Shown here one piece after another: positions 30,817-64,000 of a stretch of DNA of 64,000 bases. Under the pieces are notes generated by a model. The model had not been told where the DNA came from, did not search any database, and saw only the letters and a list, made by a program, of their open reading frames with translations. Position 1 is the stretch's first letter. Each line of letters starts with the position of its first letter. The position numbers and the translations under genes are program-made. Source of the DNA: Agelas oroides (taxonomy: Eukaryota > Porifera > Demospongiae > Agelasida > Agelasidae); assembly GCA_949130485.1 (NCBI GenBank), contig OX422199.1, positions 7,508,015-7,572,014 of the forward strand, written 5' to 3'.

Positions 30817-33068
<2,252 letters not shown>

Positions 33069-33181: not shown

Positions 33182-34519
33182 TTATACGAAATCATGCGCC
33201 AGTTTGCGCACAGTCTCTGCAAACTGTCTGTCCCGGCTGGCCAGTGCGGCATCCACCAGAGCCTGGAAGGTTGCCCCTGAGCCAAGTTTCCTTTTCCATA
33301 TCAGGAGCAGCTGTAACTTCTGTTCACCATAGCTGTGCTTGTCGTGTTGGAGTTCCTGCATCTCTGCCCAGCTGAAACCAAGCGGTGGTGCCAGCCTCTC
33401 CCAGGATGCCAGGTGTTGAGAGCAGGCAAACAGAGCACGCTCAGAGCAGGATGCATTGAGGTCAGACAAACCCTGAGTTGGGAAAGGGATGGGAATATGT
33501 TGGTAGCATGTTGGCTGTGCCAGGTAGTGTTGGTGTTGGGGGATATACCTGAGTTGTTTCACTGGATTGGTCTTCAAATAGTTTGTAGCATCCTGAAGGA
33601 GTCTCCAGAAATACCCTTTGAATGTCCAGTTCACGAAGCTCTATAACTTTAGTAGCCAGTGCAGTCTGCAGGATGTGAGGGGGAGGGATGTGCCCTCCAA
33701 GTGTCCACTTGTGAGTATAGCCTGAGTCTCGGCTGACAGAATGTCCCAGAGACGCACCCACAACTGCTGACAGTCTGGCACACACTGTCGTCACTGACTG
33801 CATGGCTCGAGTGTGGTGGGTTGTGAAAGTGGAAGAGGAGGAGAGGGAAAGTGTGCTGTCTGTTTGGAAGCCCTCCAGACATACCAACAGGTCAGTTCTG
33901 TTCAGAGACTGTAGTAGGGACCGCAGGAGAGAAGTGTCCCGAGGCCCACAGTGGCCCTCCTCCGCCAGGAAGGCAAAAAGCTGGGGAAAGTCTGTCACAC
34001 TTGGACCAGGATACACCCCCAGCAGCCGTAGGCCCATCACACTTCGGCCAAACACTTCAGGGTCACGCTGCAGACCATCAATTACCTGATTCACCATCTG
34101 GAGGTATGCCACCCGCATGGCTGGGTCACTCTGCTGTCCAGAATCTAGTTGAAAGGCATCAATAAATTTATCTTCAAAGCTATGGTTCTCACGGCTAACT
34201 CACCCATCCCTTTGTTGGGCGACGGTTGCTGCAGCTCTTTCCTCATCAACTGAACCAGTTCCTCGTGGCCAGCATTGTACTCAGTACTGAGGCACTCCTC
34301 CAGGGCCTCTAGAAACAGCACCGTGGCATTGCTCCCCCTCCTCTTTACACATACCACAGCCCACTCTATCTGTGCTTGTCCTCCCCACCCCCCAGACAGT
34401 AGCTGGGAGTATTCCTCTCCAGTCAACAGACCTTTCTGTAGGAGGTATGGCCGCAGACTCTCCAGGGACAGATAGCGCACTAGTGACGGCATGAGTCGCT
34501 CAAAAATATCACCACTCAT
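33182..34519 (-). CDS. CARD-DED-death domain protein (three death-fold domains)
   Basis: A 400-aa protein in three exons, 34204-34519, 33549-34144 and 33182-33472, with one death-fold class per exon. Exon 1 reads as CARD: LMPSLVRYLSLESLRPYLLQ, KGLLTGEEYSQLL, then a KRRGSNATVLFLEALEEC helix pair. Exon 2 starts with a DED-like fold: YLQMVNQVIDGL, FPQLFAFLAEEGHCGPRDTS, LLRSLLQSLNRTDLLVCLEG, the last matching the DED pattern LLxxLNRxDLL. About 100 residues of linker, partly Ser/Thr-rich, follow with no recognised domain. Exon 3 is a canonical death domain: LASWERLAPPLGFSWAEMQE, QKLQLLLIWKRKLGSGATFQ, ALVDAALASRDRQFAETVRK. No caspase, NACHT or kinase domain is present, so it looks like an adaptor. 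FADD is DED-DD; I know no standard adaptor with all three. The start ATG 34519 follows a CAG, so a 5' UTR exon is likely. Domain calls are by pattern; CARD and DED are less sure than DD. Confidence 0.8.
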
Positions 34520-34777
34520 TATGGTGTGCCTGCAACAAGCACACATCCATGACTGACATACACATCATGCACATCTCATATCAATTTTGAGCTGCAACAT
34601 ATCATGGTTGATGATGAGTCTGTGTTCTATTACATACCAGAGACTGTCAGCTCCAAGCAACAAGTGCTGAGGGAGGTAGAAAACACCACGTTTAGTCACA
34701 CGTACACGTACACACGGCGACGTCGATCTTGTGGGCGCGTCTTATCCGCAGGCTGGTGCGCACGCCGCGGTCTCGGG
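34520..34777. promoter_or_regulatory. Divergent intergenic region, CARD-DED-DD gene / CUSTOS-like gene
   Basis: The 258 bp between two divergent start codons. The half nearest the plus-strand gene (34700-34777) is CpG-rich with repeated cgtacacg. A 5' UTR exon of the minus-strand gene probably lies here, since a CAG acceptor precedes its ATG. Confidence 0.45.
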
Positions 34778-35978
34778 ATGAGCTCGAGCGGCGAGGACAG
34801 CGGTTCCGAAGAAGAGTTGGCGAAGCTACGCGAAGCTGTAAGTGGAGTACAAGTGCAATCAGCAGAGAAGGATCCGCGGAAACAGAAGAACAAGTAGGTA
34901 CTAATGTATTCCTAGTAATATGCAGTGGTCTAAACTCTGCTACCTGCGACTGTGAAGTGCGGCACTAGGTTAGCTACTGTCAGCACTGAGCTAAGAATTC
35001 TGCACAGCACCAGTAGTTTTTGCTCCCTAGAACTTCTAAGTGTGCCATCCCTGGCAGTGGTGTGTGTGGTTCAGAGCAGGAGGGTGCTCAGTCGTTCCTG
35101 GCACGCAAACTAGCGGAGCTACTGGACAGGTAAACTGCATGCACTTCTGTTTTGACCTATGAGTTTATGTGCTCCCTGGCCCTCCAGCCAGTATGACACC
35201 AGTTCAGCTGTTGCTAGCATCCCTGATGACATGAAACCCAGAGCAGTTCACGGTGCGTGTGCATTGGGCATCCACTAGCTAGTCTCCTTGACTCCTTGAT
35301 GTCCTTCCTCTATAATGTGCAGATGAAGGCATCCGATTACTGCACACATCCAAAGATCCCATTGTTCTTGATAAAGCAATCGCCCACCCTGCTACCCTTA
35401 GGAGGCTCATACCATCTGACAGGTACACATGTCCAGAACTGTTGTTTGTTGCATAGACAGATGGTGCAAGGATCTTCTTTTGTCTGTGACCAGCTAGTCT
35501 TGCAGGCCTAACCCACTTCCGCAAAAGAAGGGCAGGGTCTGGTGAACTGGGTATACAGGCCATGTCCTGCCACACATTGTAGTATTTTGTTACATGACAC
35601 ATTATGTCACTGTTTGAGTAGCAGTCTTGAAAACAGCAAAAGAGAGCTATATATCTTTTCTGCATGCTACTGCAGAAGCTGTAAAAAACACTTCAACTAT
35701 ACTTCTCTGGGAGTGTGCTTACTCTGCAACAAGTAATTCAAGAGTGCATTATTTGAAATCCAGCTAATTGCATTCCGGTGGGACACAGCTTGTATATACA
35801 GTTCACCAGACCCTTCCCTTCTTTTGTGGAAGTGCGAGATTAGTGACCAGCTAGCCACTGCTTTGTTGCACACATCACATGCAGTGAGGAGTCAGAAGAT
35901 GAGCGGCTCCAGGAGGCTGCTGTCGACCCACACACACTCATACCCATATACCACAAGATAGCTGACAGCAGAGACTAG
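34778..35978 (+). CDS. CUSTOS: CUSTOS-like small acidic protein
   Basis: A 157-aa protein in five exons: 34778-34893, 35031-35129, 35188-35252, 35323-35422, 35885-35978, all joins in phase. The N-terminus MSSSGEDSGSEEELAKLREA matches the Ser/Glu-rich start with the (E)ELxxxREA motif of vertebrate CUSTOS (C12orf43). It continues with AQSFLARKLAELLD, DEGIRLLHTSKDPI, and a second acidic motif SEESEDERLQEAAV. CUSTOS is described as a nuclear protein linked to Wnt signalling in Xenopus. The basic lysine-rich C-terminal half of the vertebrate protein is missing; this one ends IPIYHKIADSRD. The assignment rests on order and spacing of three short motifs, so it is probable rather than certain. Confidence 0.75.
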
Positions 35979-55385: not shown

Positions 55386-58300
55386 TAAATAGTATAAGCA
55401 GTGATGTGCAATAGTATATACAGTGATGTGCAATAGTATATGCAGTGATGTAATATTGCATGCAGTGATGTGCAATGGTGTATGCAGTGATGTACTATAG
55501 CATGCAGTGATGTGCAATAGTATATGCAGTGATTTACAGCAGCATGCAGTGAATGTGCAATGGTATATGCAGTGTTGTACTGTAGCATTCAGTGATGTGG
55601 AATAGTGTATGCGTGATGAGCTGTAGCATGCAGTGATGTGCAATAGTATATGCAGTGATATAATATTGCATGCAGTGATGTGCAATAGTATATGCAGTGA
55701 TGTAATATTGCATGCAGTGATGTGCAATGGTGTATGCAGTGATGTACTATAGCATGCAGTGATGTGCAATAGTATATGCAGTGATTTACAATAGCATGCA
55801 GTGAATGTGCAATGGTATATGCAGTGTTGTACTGTAGCATTCAGTGATGTGGAATAGTGTATGCGTGATGATCTGTAGCATGCAGTGATGTGCAATAGTA
55901 TATGCAGTGATACATTATAACATCCAGTGATGTGCAAAAGTATATTCAGTGATATGCAATAGCATGCAGCAATGTGCAATAGTATATGCAGTGATGTGGA
56001 ATAGTATATGCAGTGATGTGCAATAGTATTTGCAATGATGTGCAATAGTATATGCAGTGATATACTATAGCATGCAGTGATGTGCAATAGTATATGCAGT
56101 GATATGCAATAGCATGCAGGAATGTGCAGTAGTATACGCAGTGATGTAATATAACTTGCAGTGATGTGCAATAGTATAAGCAGTGATGTAATATTGCATG
56201 CAGTGATGTGCAATAATGTATGCAGTGATGTACTATCGCAGCAGTGATATGCAATAGTATATTCAGTGATTTACTATAGCATGCAGTGAATGTGCAATGG
56301 TATATGCAGTGTTGTACTGTAGCATTCAGTGATGTGGAATAGTGTATGCAGTGATGAGCTGTAGCATGCAGTGATGTGCAATAGTATATGCAGTGATGTA
56401 GTATAGCATGCAGTGATGTGCAATAGTATATGCAGTGATATGCAATAGCATGCAGCAATGTGCAGTAGTGTATGCAGTGATGTAACAACATGCAGTGATG
56501 TGCAATAGTATATGCAGTGATGTAATATGGCATGCAGTGATGTGCAATAGTATATGCTGTGGTGTACAATACTACATGCTGTGATCTGCAATAGTATATG
56601 CAGTGATGTGCAGTAGTATATGCAGTGATATGCTATAACGTGCAGTGATGTGCATAGTATATTCAGTGATATGCGATAGCATGCAGCAATGTGCAGTAGT
56701 ATATGCAGTGATGTAATATAAGATGCAGTGATGTGCAATAGTATATGCAGTGATGTAATATAGTATATCAGTGATGTGTTATAAAATGCAGTGAAGTGCA
56801 ATTGTATATGAAGTTATGTGCAATAGTATATGCAGGGATGTACTATAGCATGCAGTGATGTGCAATAGTATATGTAGTGATAAGCAATAGCATGCAGCAA
56901 TGTGCAGTAGTATATGCAGTGATATGCAAAAGTATATGCAGTGATGTGCCATAGTATATGCTGTGATGTGCAATAGTATTTGCAGTGATGTGCGATAGTA
57001 TATGCAGTGATGTAATATTGCATGCAGTGATGTGCAATGGGTATGCAGTGATGTACTATAGCATGCAGTGATGTGCAATAATATATGCAGTGATTTACAA
57101 TAGCATGCAGTGAATGTGCAATGGTATATGCAGGTTGTACTGTAGCATTCAGTGATGTGGAATAGTGTATGCGTGATGAGCTGTAGCATGCAGTGGTGTG
57201 CAATAGTATATTCAGTGATATGCAGTAGCATGCAGCAATGTGCATAGTATTTGCAGTGATGTGCAATAGTATATGCAGTGATGTGCAATAGTATTTGCAG
57301 TGATGTGCAATAGTATATGCATTGATATACTATGGCATTCAGTGATATGCAATGGTATATGCAGTGATATGCAATAGCCTGCAGGAATGGCAGTAGTATA
57401 CGCAGTGATGTAATATAATATGAAGTGATGTGCAATAGTATAAGCAGTGATGTGCAATAGTATATGCAGTGATATGCTATAACGTGCAGTGATGTGCAAT
57501 AGTATATTCAGTGATATGCGATAGCATGCAGCAATGTGCACTAGTATATGCAGTGATGTAATATAAGATGCAGTGATGTGCAATAGTATATGCAGTGATG
57601 TAATATAGTATATCAGTGATGTGTTATAAAATGCAGTGAAGTGCAATTGTATATGAAGTTATGTGCAATAGTATATGCAGGGATGTACTATAGCATGCAG
57701 TGATGTGCAATAGTAATGTAGTGATAAGCAATAGCATGCAGCAATGTGCAATAGTATATGCAGTGATATGCAAAAGTATATGCATGATGTGCCATAGTAT
57801 ATGCTGTGATGTGCAATAGTATTTGCAGTGATGTGCGATAGTATATGCAGTGATGTAATATTGCATGCAGTGATGTGCAATGGGTATGCAGTGATGTACT
57901 ATAGCATGCAGTGATGTGCAATAGTATATGCAGTGATTTACAATAGCATGCAGTGAATGTGCAATGGTATATGCAGGTTGTACTGTAGCATTCAGTGATG
58001 TAGAATAGTGTATGCGTGATGAGCTGTAGCATGCAGTGGTGTGCAATAGTATATTCAGTGATATGCAGTAGCATGCAGCAATGTGCAATAGTATATGCAG
58101 TGATGTGCAATAGTGTATGCAGTGATGTGCAATAGTATTTGCAGTGATGTGCAATAGTATATGCATTGATATACTATGGCATTCAGTGATATGCAATGGT
58201 ATATGCAGTGATATGCAATAGCCTGCAGGAATGGCAGTAGTATACGCAGTGATGTAATAAGTGATGTGTAATAGTATAAGCAGTGATGTGCAATAGTATA

Positions 58301-61040
58301 TGCAGTGATGTAATATGGCATGCAGTGATGTGAAATAGTATATGCTGTGGTGTGCAATACTAGCTGTGATCTGCAATAGTATATGCAGTGATGTGCAATA
58401 GTATATGCAGTGATGTAATATGGCATGCAGTGATGTGAAATAGTATATGCTGTGGTGTGCAATACTACATGCTGTGATCTGCAATAGTATATGCAGTGAT
58501 GTGCAATAGTATATGCAGTGATATGCTATAACGTGCAGTGATGTGCAATAGCATATTCAGTGATATGCGATAGCATGCAGCAATGTGCAGTAGTATATGC
58601 AGTGATGTAATATAAGATGCAGTGATGTGCAATAGTATATGCAGTGATTTAATATGGTATATCAGTGGTGTGTTATAAAATGCAGTGGTGTGCAATTGTA
58701 TATGCAGTTATATACAATAGTACATGCAGGAATGTACTATAGCATGCAGTGATGTGCAATAGTATATGCAGTGATATGCAATAGCGTGCAGCAATGTGCA
58801 GTAGTATATGCAGTGATATGCAATTGCATGCAGCAATGTGCGATAGTATATGCAGTGATGTGCAATGGTATATGCAGTGATGTACTCTAGCATGCAGCAA
58901 TGTGCAATAGATATGCAGTGATGTAATATAGCATGCAGTGATGTGCTGTAGTATATGCAGTGATGTGCAGTAGTATATGCCGTGATGTGCAATAGTATTA
59001 TGCAGTGATGTGCAATGGTATATGCAGTGATGTACTATTGCATGCAGTGATGTGCAATAGTATATGCAGTGATATGCAATAGCATGCAGCAATGTGCAGT
59101 AGTATATGCAGTAATGTACTATTGCATGCAGTGATGTGCAATAGTATATGCAGTGATATGTAATAGCATGCAGCAATGTGCAGTAGTATATGCAGTAATG
59201 TAATATGCATGCAGTGATGTGCAATAGTGTTGCAGTGATGTACTATAGCATGCAGTGAATGTGTAATGGCATGCAGCAATGTGCAGTATTATATGCAGTG
59301 ATGTAATTAACATGCAGTGATGTGCGATAGTATATGCAGTGATGTGCAATAGTATATGCAGTGATATGCAATAGTATATGCAGTGACGTAATATGCATGG
59401 CACTCAGTGATGTGCAATAGTATATGCAGTGATATGCTATAGTATATGCTATTGCGTGCAGTGATGTGCAATAGTCTATGCAGGGATATGCAATAGCATG
59501 CAGCAATGTGCAGTAGTATATGCAGTGATGTAATATAACATGCAGTGATGTGCAATAGTATATGCAGTGTTGTAATACGGCATGCAGTGATGTGCAATAG
59601 TATATGCAGTGATGTCAATAGTATTTGCAGTGATGTGCAATAGTATATGCAGTGATATACAATGGCATGAGTGATGTGCAATAGTATATGCAGTGATATG
59701 CAATAGCATGCAGCAATGTGCGGTAGTATATGCAGTGATGTAACATAACATGCAGTGATGTGCAATAGTATATGCAGTGATGTAATGTAACATTCAGTGA
59801 TGTGCAATAGTATATGCAGTGATATGCAAGAGTGTAGCAGTGATGTAATATGCATGGCATGCAATAGTGTATGCAGTGATGTGAAATACTATATGCAGTG
59901 ATGTGGAATAGTATATGCAGTGATGTGCAATAGGATATGCTATAACATGCAGTGATGTGCAATAGTATATGCTGTGATATGCAATAGCATGCAGCACTGT
60001 GCAGAAGTATATGCAGTGATGTAATATAACATGCAGTGAATTGCAATAATATATGGAGTTTTGTAATATGGCATGCAGTGATGTGCAATAGTATATGCAG
60101 TGATGTGAAATACTATATGCAGTGATGTGGAATAGTGTATGCAGTGATGTGCAATAGTATATGCTGTGATATGCTATAACATGCGGTGATGTGCAATAGT
60201 ATATGCTGTGATATGCTATAACATGCAGTGATATGCAATAGTATATGCAGTGATATGCAATAGCATGCAGCAATGTGCGGAAGTATATGCATTGATGTAA
60301 TATAACAGTGAATTGCAATAGTATATGGAGTTTTGTAATATGGCATGCAGTGATGTGCAATAGTGTATGCAGTGATGTGCAATAGATATGCAGTGATGTG
60401 CAATAGTATATGCAGTGATAAGCAATAGCATGCAGTAGTATATGCAGTGATGTAGTATAGCATGCAGTGATGTGCTATAGTGTATGCAGTGAGGTGCAAT
60501 ATTATATGCAGTGATGTGCAATAGTACATGCTTAGTGATGTTCAATGGTGTATAGTGATGTACTACAGCATGCAGTGATGTGCAATAGTGTATGAGTGTT
60601 GTGCAGTAGTATATGTAGTGATGTACTGTAGCATGCAATGATGTGCAATTCTATATGCAGTGATGTCCTATAGCTTGCAGTAATGTGGAATGGATATGTA
60701 GTGATGTGCATAGTATATGCAGTGGTGTACTATAGCTTCCTGTCATGAACAATAGTATAAGCAATGTTGTGCTATAGCATACAGTGATGTTCAAAAGTAT
60801 ACACAATGATGTACTATAGCTTGCAGTGATGTGCAATAATATATGCGGTGATGTGGTTTAGTATATGCAGTGATGTGCAATAGTATATACAGTGATGTGC
60901 AATACTATTGCAGTAATGTGCAATACTGTTGTAGTAATATGCAATAGTATATGCAGATATGTACTAAAGTGTGCAGTGATGTGCAATAGTATACGCAGTG
61001 GTGTGCAATGGTAAATGCAGTGATGTACTATAGCATGCAA
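55386..61040. repeat. Satellite A: 20-22 bp units in about 42-bp dimers, with higher-order repeats
   Basis: The base units are tgcagtgatgtgcaatagta(ta) and tgcagtgatgtaatattgca or tgcagtgatgtactatagca, alternating. Longer blocks recur: the segment beginning gatatgctataacgtgcagt occurs near 56625, 57470 and 58520. The 57005-57410 and 57850-58255 stretches are almost identical. Long open frames on the minus strand follow from the lack of stop codons in the unit. Confidence 0.97.
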
Positions 61041-64000
61041 AGTACCAGGGGAATCCCAGAGGGTTCAATCTGTTGGGTGGATACCAAGTGTTTGGGGACG
61101 CAAGGGGAATGCTAGGGGAGTGTATGGGGGTGGATGCCTTCTGTTTGGGGACGCCAGGGGAATGCCAGGGGAACGTATGGGGGTGGGTGCAAAGTGCCAG
61201 GGGAATGTAGGGGAATGCCAGGGGAACGTATGGGAGTGGGTTCAAAGTGCCAGGCGAATGTATGGGGATGTATGCATTGTGCCAGGGGGCACTTTGTAAC
61301 CAGTTCCATACGTTCCCCTGGCATTCCCCTGGGTTTCCATGGCACTTTACACCCACCGCCATACGTTCTCTTGGCATTCCCTGCGTTCCACTGGCACAAT
61401 GCACACATACCCATATGTTCCCCTGGCACTTTGCACCCACCCCCATACGTTCCCCTGGTATCACCCTGCATTCCCCTGGCACTGCACCCACTTCCATAAG
61501 TTCCCTTGGCATTCCCCTGCATTCCCATGGGATCCCCTGGCATTTTACACCCACTCCCATACATTCCCCTGCATCCACCTGGCATTTTGCACCCACTCCA
61601 TATGTTCCCTGGCATTCCCCTACATTCCCCTGGCACTTTGCACCCACTCCCATACGTTCCCCTGGCATTCCCCTGCATTCCATTGCATTCCCTTGGCACT
61701 TCGCACCCACTCCCATACATTCCCCTGCATTCTCCTGGCATTTTGCACACATACCCATACTTTCCCCAGGCATTCCCCTACATTACCCTGGCACTGTGCC
61801 CACTCCCATATGTTCCCCTGCCATTCCCTTGCATTCCCCTGCATTCCCCTGACAATTTGCACCCACTTCCATACGTTCCCCTGCATTCCTCTGCGTTCCA
61901 CTGGCGTTTTGCACCCACTCCCATACATTACCCTGGCATTCCCCCGCATTCCCATTGTACTTTGCACACACTCCTATGCATTCCCCTGGCATCCCCCTGC
62001 ATTCCCCTGGCAATTTTCACCCACTCCCATATGTTCCCTGGCATTCCCCTGCATTCCCCTACATCCCCCTGGCACTTTGTACCCACTCCGATACGTTCCC
62101 CTGGCATTCCCCTGCATTCCCCTGCATTCCCCTGGCACTTTGCACCCACTCCCATACGTTGCTGTGGCATTCCCCTGCATTCCCCTGCATTTGCCTGGCA
62201 CTTTGCACCCACTCCCATACACTCCCCTGGCATTCCCTTGCATTCCCCTGCATTCCCCTGGCACTTTGAACCCACTTCCATATGTTCCCCTGGCATTCCT
62301 CTGCATTACCCTGCGTTCTCTTGTCGTTTTGCACCCACTCCCATACATTCCCCTGGCACTTTGCACCCACTCCCATAAGTTCACTAGCATTCTCCTGAAT
62401 TGCGCTACATTCCCCTCGCACTTTGCACCCACTCCCATATGTTCCCCTGGCATTCCCCTGCATTCCCCAGGCACTTTGCACACCCTCCGACACGTTCCCC
62501 TAGCATTCCCCTGCATTCCCCTGGCACTTTGCACTCCCATATGTTCCCCTGGCATTCCCCTTCATTCCCCTGAATTCCTCTGGCAATTTGCACCCAGTCC
62601 CATACATTTCCATGCATTCCCCTGGCACTTTGCACACATACCTATACGTTCCCCTGGCATTCTCCTGCATTCCCCTGGCATTTTGGACCCACTTCCATAC
62701 ATTCCGCTAGCGTTCCCTTGCAGTTTCCTGCGTCCCCCTGGCACTTTGCACCCACTCCCAAAAGTTCCCTGGCATTCCCCTGAATTGCCCTACATTCCCC
62801 TGGCACTTTGCACCCACTCCCATACGTTCCCTAGGCATTCCCCTGCATTCCCCTGGCTCTGTTCACCTACTCCGATACGTTCCCCTGGCATTCCCCTGCA
62901 TTCCCCTGGCACTGCGCCCACTCCCATATGTTCCCCTGGCATTCCCCTTCATTCCCCTGCATTCCTCTGGCAATTTGCACCTAGTCCCATACATTCCCAT
63001 GCATTCCCCTAGCACTTTGCACAAACACCTATACGTTCCCCTGGCATTCCCTTGCATTCCCCTGGCATTTTGGACCCACTTCCATACGTTCCCCTAGCAT
63101 TCCCTTGCATTTCCCTGCGTTGCCCTGGCACTTTGCACCCACTCCCAAAAGTTCCCTGGCATTCCCTTGAATTGCCCCACATTCCCCTGGCACTTTGCAC
63201 CCACTCCCATACGTTCCCCTGGCATTCCCCTGCATTCTCCTGCATTCCCCTGGAACTTTTCACCCACTCCCATACGTTCCCCTGGGATTCCCCTGCATTC
63301 CCCTGGTACTTTGTACCCACTTCCATACATTCCCCTGGCATTCCCCTGCATTCCCCTGGCACATTGCACCCACTCACATTTACCTGGCATTCCCCTGCAT
63401 TCCACTGGCACATTGCACCCACTCCCTTACATTCACCTGGCATTCCCCTGCATTCCCCTGGCACTTTGCACCCACTCCATTACGTTCCCCTGGGATTCCC
63501 CTGCATTCTCCCTGCATTCCCCTGCATTCCCCTGGCACATTACACCCACTTATATTCCCCTGGCATCCCCCTGCATTCCTGTGCATTCACATGGCACTTT
63601 GTACCCACTCCAATACGTTCCCCTGGCATTCCCCTACATTTCACTGGCACATTGCACCCACTCCCTTACATTCCCCTGGCATTCTCCTGCATTCCCTGCA
63701 TTCACATGGCACTTTGCACTCACTCCAATACATTCCCCTGCATTCCCCTAGCACTTTGCACCCACTCCTATACATTCCCCTGGTATTCCCCTGCATTCCC
63801 CTGGATTCCCTTGGCACTTTGCACCCACTCCCTTTCGTTCCCCTCCTGCATTCCCCTGGCACTATGTACCCACTTCCATACGTTCCCCTGGCATTCCCCT
63901 GCATTCCCCTGGCACATTGCATCCACTCCCTTACATTCCCCTGGTATTCCCGTGCATTCCCCTGGCACTTTGCACCCACTTCATTACGTTCCCTGGGATT
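61041..64000. repeat. Satellite B: (cattcccctg)n + gcactttgcacccactcccatacg units, with inversion
   Basis: A module gcactttgcacccactccca followed by tacgttcccctgg alternates with one to three cattcccctg blocks, giving units of roughly 43-63 bp. From 61041 to about 61288 the array is in the opposite sense (ccaggggaatgccaggggaa). It continues past the window end. Confidence 0.97.

Follow-up and report, generated by a model that had tools for sequence, protein, structure and literature searches.

Death-fold domains pair mostly inside their own class, and the known adaptors FADD (DED-DD) and CRADD (CARD-DD) each combine two of them. The chain described here fits neither of these two-domain plans, as the initial annotation had proposed. 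Unusual death-fold combinations are on record in sponges, amphioxus and cnidarians, going by the parts considered of PMC8195603, PMC2575513 and PMC2246300. The first of these sources, in the portion used, describes multi-death-fold proteins with TRADD-N in a sponge (the NCOA6 clade of Amphimedon), and our chain resembles them in having several death-superfamily domains per chain, an alpha/beta segment following death folds, and lineage-specific mixing of domains; unlike them, it shows no TRADD-N by sequence, and no module comes after its C-terminal death domain (DD). A CARD-DED-DD order is not named in section 10 of that source. We found no such chain in the open-licence PMC papers searched, which is weak evidence.

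The locus lies on the minus strand at positions 33182-34519 of the window, by which we mean the whole 64,000-nucleotide stretch of Agelas oroides DNA that was analysed; the window is situated on contig C17, about 19 kb off the contig's end, in a genome of 259 Mb, and the locus occupies C17:7541196-7542533. The repertoire of death-fold, NACHT and TRADD-N domains in this genome points to an early-branching animal, probably a sponge. Three exons and two short GT-AG introns give a single open chain of 400 aa, and the extent and length given by the initial annotation were correct. Exon 1 (34519-34204, 316 nt coding) starts at the ATG at 34519 and carries the CARD, exon 2 (34144-33549, 596 nt) carries the DED and a segment that is not a death fold, and exon 3 (33472-33182, 291 nt including the stop) carries the DD. 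They are separated by putative intron 1 (34203-34145, 59 nt, GTGAGT...CTAG, phase 1) and putative intron 2 (33548-33473, 76 nt, GTATAT...TCAG, phase 0), and the three exons would be spliced together at these predicted joins. Read in frame, all three exons resemble in codon bias 13 training frames of the same genome, with the other five frames lower; random stretches of the window reached the scores of the exons in 26/2000, 14/2000 and 19/2000 cases. The gene may also have a 5' leader exon, as hinted by two sites upstream of the ATG, one acceptor-like (TTGTTGCAG) at 34530-34531, 10 bases ahead of it, and one donor-like (GTATGT). Elsewhere in the window there is a long minisatellite at 55388-61033, near the contig's end, with a unit of about 22 bases and about 265 copies, located in strongly GC-skewed sequence, and a second array with a unit of about 53 bases extends from 61418 to the window's end at 64000.

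A rival reading is that two or three separate transcripts have been misread as one gene. If intron 1 were retained after exon 1, the reading frame would yield a product of about 125 aa with the CARD alone, and none of the four poly(A)-like hexamers sought was present downstream of the stop. The same hexamers were also absent between the exons, but this is uninformative because the end of the gene has none either, leaving its own 3' end unmarked. Against separate transcripts, no ATG of exon 3 precedes Met 342, in the middle of the DD, and exon 3 therefore needs an upstream exon. The neighbouring genes also leave little room: an ArfGAP gene, likewise on the minus strand, starts at 33068, 114 bases downstream, and a plus-strand gene starts at 34778, 259 bases upstream. 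We consider a misreading of this kind very improbable.

Searched against Pfam, the 400-aa chain shows a CARD first, then a DED and last a Death domain. The CARD (PF00619; 34295-34498, residues 8-75) scored 21.5 bits (E 0.00025) in the whole chain, with a cut-off of 23.9, and 25.2 bits, over that cut-off, with exon 1 alone; it scored 24.1 bits in the genome-wide profile search. The CARD exon matches another CARD locus of the genome with an E of 8.6e-10, and given this paralogue the match is, as judged from sequence comparison, more than chance. The DED (33846-34109, residues ~118-205) gave 26.6 bits against PF01335 in the 400-aa chain (E 7e-06), not reaching the cut-off of 35.9 in an alignment that covers profile positions 36-80 only (45/82), and it took place 39 of 50 in the genome-wide profile search with 28.5 bits. 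The DED motif RxDL is present as RTDL at residue 188, within LLQSLNRTDLL. When the DED was compared with those of two paralogues, L034 and L038, no shuffled sequence scored as high (0/500 for each), and these two DEDs themselves score only 21.6 and 19.4 bits with Pfam. We have called this domain a DED on its homology and not on its Pfam score. The DD (Pfam match at 33227-33409, residues 326-386) reached 38.2 bits against PF00531 in the whole chain, with a cut-off of 22.6, and 42.9 bits with exon 3 alone. These results bear out the initial annotation in reading one protein with CARD, DED and DD from three exons, in its DED-like middle containing LLQSLNRTDLL and in its clear C-terminal DD. The profile searches that it had proposed as a check gave a mixed outcome, with the CARD passing on exon 1 and the DED remaining below the curated cut-off.

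Exon 2 also carries about 100 residues (about 203-304; 33549-33854) for which the order strand-helix-strand-strand-helix-strand-strand is predicted. The modelled topology of this segment is ferredoxin-like, at low confidence (pLDDT 56.1, pTM 0.41), and a single-sequence AlphaFold model of the entire exon 2 had a pLDDT of 38.8. The segment is without significant match in Pfam (best E 0.34). TRADD-N domains hold the corresponding place in some known proteins, and such an identity was convincing by eye and by topology; however, it was supported neither by HMMs built from 5, 6 or 7 sequences nor by hhalign or tests with shuffled sequences. Pfam TRADD-N gave no match at E <= 10 in the 400-aa chain, and three TRADD-N profiles made from sequences of this genome scored 0.0, 1.1 and 0.4 bits against the segment, within the range of shuffles. 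TRADD chains were absent from the 50 matches listed in either of two listings, which proves nothing. TRADD-N is thus a positional guess for this segment.

The absence of sequence resemblance to TRADD-N would suit a relic, a drifting NLR front end whose gene no longer has its NACHT part, and so would the finding that the whole of exon 2 as a query (E <= 0.001) matches nothing in the genome except itself. Yet a drifting sequence agrees poorly with 400 codons free of stops or frame breaks, with GT-AG introns, with a coding bias retained in every exon and with the retained RxDL motif, and we regard a relic as quite improbable.

The relatives of these domains within the same genome suggest the company in which the protein might act. 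Besides the locus itself, the six nearest DD loci are L002, L003, L005, L006, L007 and L008, and in the first five of these a NACHT domain is found in the same or a following frame. L008 has a DD and gave no NACHT by a P-loop motif scan, but the same scan also missed the NACHT domains that Pfam recognises in L002 and L003, and the scan of flanks is for this reason unusable. In L007 (2-2983, minus strand) a death-like domain, recognised by eye and without a Pfam match, and a TRADD-N, also by eye, precede the DD and NACHT; on C8, between 9.32 and 9.68 Mb, there are seven more DD places, their frames about 400 aa long, which may form a cluster of similar genes. In our 400-aa chain no NACHT was among the Pfam families at E <= 10, Pfam found no enzyme or sensor part, and the gene that follows downstream is the ArfGAP. 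Among the loci compared, the domains resemble those of NACHT receptors more closely than those of FADD or of caspases.

The best PDB sequence matches point in another direction, being the DD of CRADD (E 0.00095) for the DD and the DED of FADD (E 0.001) for the DED, as might be expected of a death-receptor adaptor of the FADD or CRADD type with an extra domain. This genome, however, has a separate gene on C26 (L041; 936-2583, minus strand), in which a DED over two frames (46.3 and 19.4 bits) is followed by a Death domain (29.9 bits). FADD is the best match in the PDB (E 0.0025), and as read from its frames this gene is FADD-like. Moreover, among nine DEDs compared, with the FADD-like DED left out, the one in our chain is closest to two receptor DEDs. 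A FADD- or CRADD-type adaptor is consequently an unlikely reading.

L034 (578-5061) and L038 (3-4397), both on the minus strand of C21, have a CARD-DED frame followed by a CARD frame and then by a NACHT frame, an architecture read from frames on one strand. In both, CARD and DED share one uninterrupted frame with a region of unnamed kind after the DED, and our CARD aligns to the first CARD of L034 with an E of 8e-08. The single CARD-DED frame of these receptors speaks against the exon shuffling that the initial annotation had suggested, as does the structure of exon 2 itself, which at 596 nt is not a frame-neutral module because a phase 1 intron precedes it and a phase 0 intron follows. Its observation that exon borders coincide with domain borders stands as far as the introns are placed, between CARD and DED and between the segment and the DD, but exon 2 encodes more than a DED (203-304).

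For a wider view we counted domain places within 5 kb of each other on the same strand, which gives lower bounds. The census took in 50/50 DED places, 98/98 CARD places, 31/32 caspase rows (the second piece of one place being omitted) and 179 DD places (150 scored of 870 candidates plus 29 of 76 other rows). At this distance our locus was the only place with CARD, DED and DD and the only DED-DD pair; CARD-DED neighbours occurred at four loci, namely this one, one on C4 and two on C21, and one further CARD-DD pair was on C3. We do not claim uniqueness, because L041, a DED-DD gene with a DD divided between frames, escaped the census. None of the 31 caspase places compared had a CARD within 5 kb on its own strand, again a lower bound, and this does not favour the earlier proposal that the chain links initiator caspases of both types. 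DED places ahead of a caspase domain were found at two adjacent loci on C15 (957149-962882), which are two tail-to-tail genes on opposite strands, each with two DED places and then a caspase domain.

Since its kin are NACHT receptors and a separate FADD-like gene exists, the best reading of the protein is that of an NLR front end lacking the engine. It would correspond to the signalling N-terminus of the NACHT receptors of this genome, minus NACHT and sensor repeats. Our preferred reading, which we hold to be about evenly balanced between right and wrong, is that the locus is a single gene for a 400-aa connector on NLR platforms, composed of CARD, DED, alpha/beta segment and DD. As for its partners and the direction of signalling, the DD may join DD-NACHT receptors, the CARD may join CARD-carrying NACHT or NB-ARC receptors, and the DED might either co-assemble with receptor DEDs or relay the signal to DED-caspases. 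A more specific form is possible but doubtful, in which the protein is a soluble hub coupling three homotypic codes, so that one shared assembly could be nucleated by DD-NACHT receptors, by receptors of the CARD type and by DED partners, whether receptors or DED-caspases; if true, it would unite a role that vertebrates divide among ASC, FADD and CRADD.

The main rival to the connector is a decoy or brake. Mammalian CARD-only and pyrin-only proteins cap receptor assemblies, and front-end domains copied from an NLR without its NACHT might do the same by occupying the DD, DED and CARD surfaces of the receptors. That the DED and DD are, among the loci compared, most like those of NACHT proteins and that no enzyme or sensor part was found in the chain by Pfam would suit such a function. 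A decoy would, however, need fewer than three different intact domains. Capping and nucleation are not separated by the present results, and we regard the decoy as a tentative reading, rather less probable than the connector.

If the protein is a connector, one protein could have linked classes of receptor in early animals where vertebrates use separate adaptors. The chain also offers a tractable way to test whether adaptors arose from NLR front-end domains released by receptors or whether the reverse took place. Together with the FADD-like gene, the receptors and the caspases that carry DEDs, it places the parts for a direct binding matrix within one genome. In the Amphimedon DISC, according to the part considered of PMC13012725, the adaptor is supersaturable and the receptor and effector are not, and this result offers a ready assay.

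In comparison with known systems, the protein shares with FADD a DED followed by a DD, with RxDL in the DED, but it has a CARD ahead of the DED, places about 100 more residues before the DD, is about twice as long, and occurs in a genome with its own FADD-like gene. It shares with CRADD/RAIDD an N-terminal CARD and a C-terminal DD, the latter also having its best PDB match there, but a DED and the alpha/beta segment are inserted between the two. The closest DDs are those of the DD-NACHT receptors (NLRD) of this genome and of published sponges, as far as the portion used of PMC12909245 describes them, although our protein is without NACHT or LRR. L034 and L038 have a collinear and sequence-related CARD and DED (the CARD being compared with L034 only), with a segment of unassigned kind at the same place after the DED; the present gene differs from them in having a CARD/DED intron where theirs is one frame, in having no NACHT found in its chain, and in carrying a DD where they have a second CARD.
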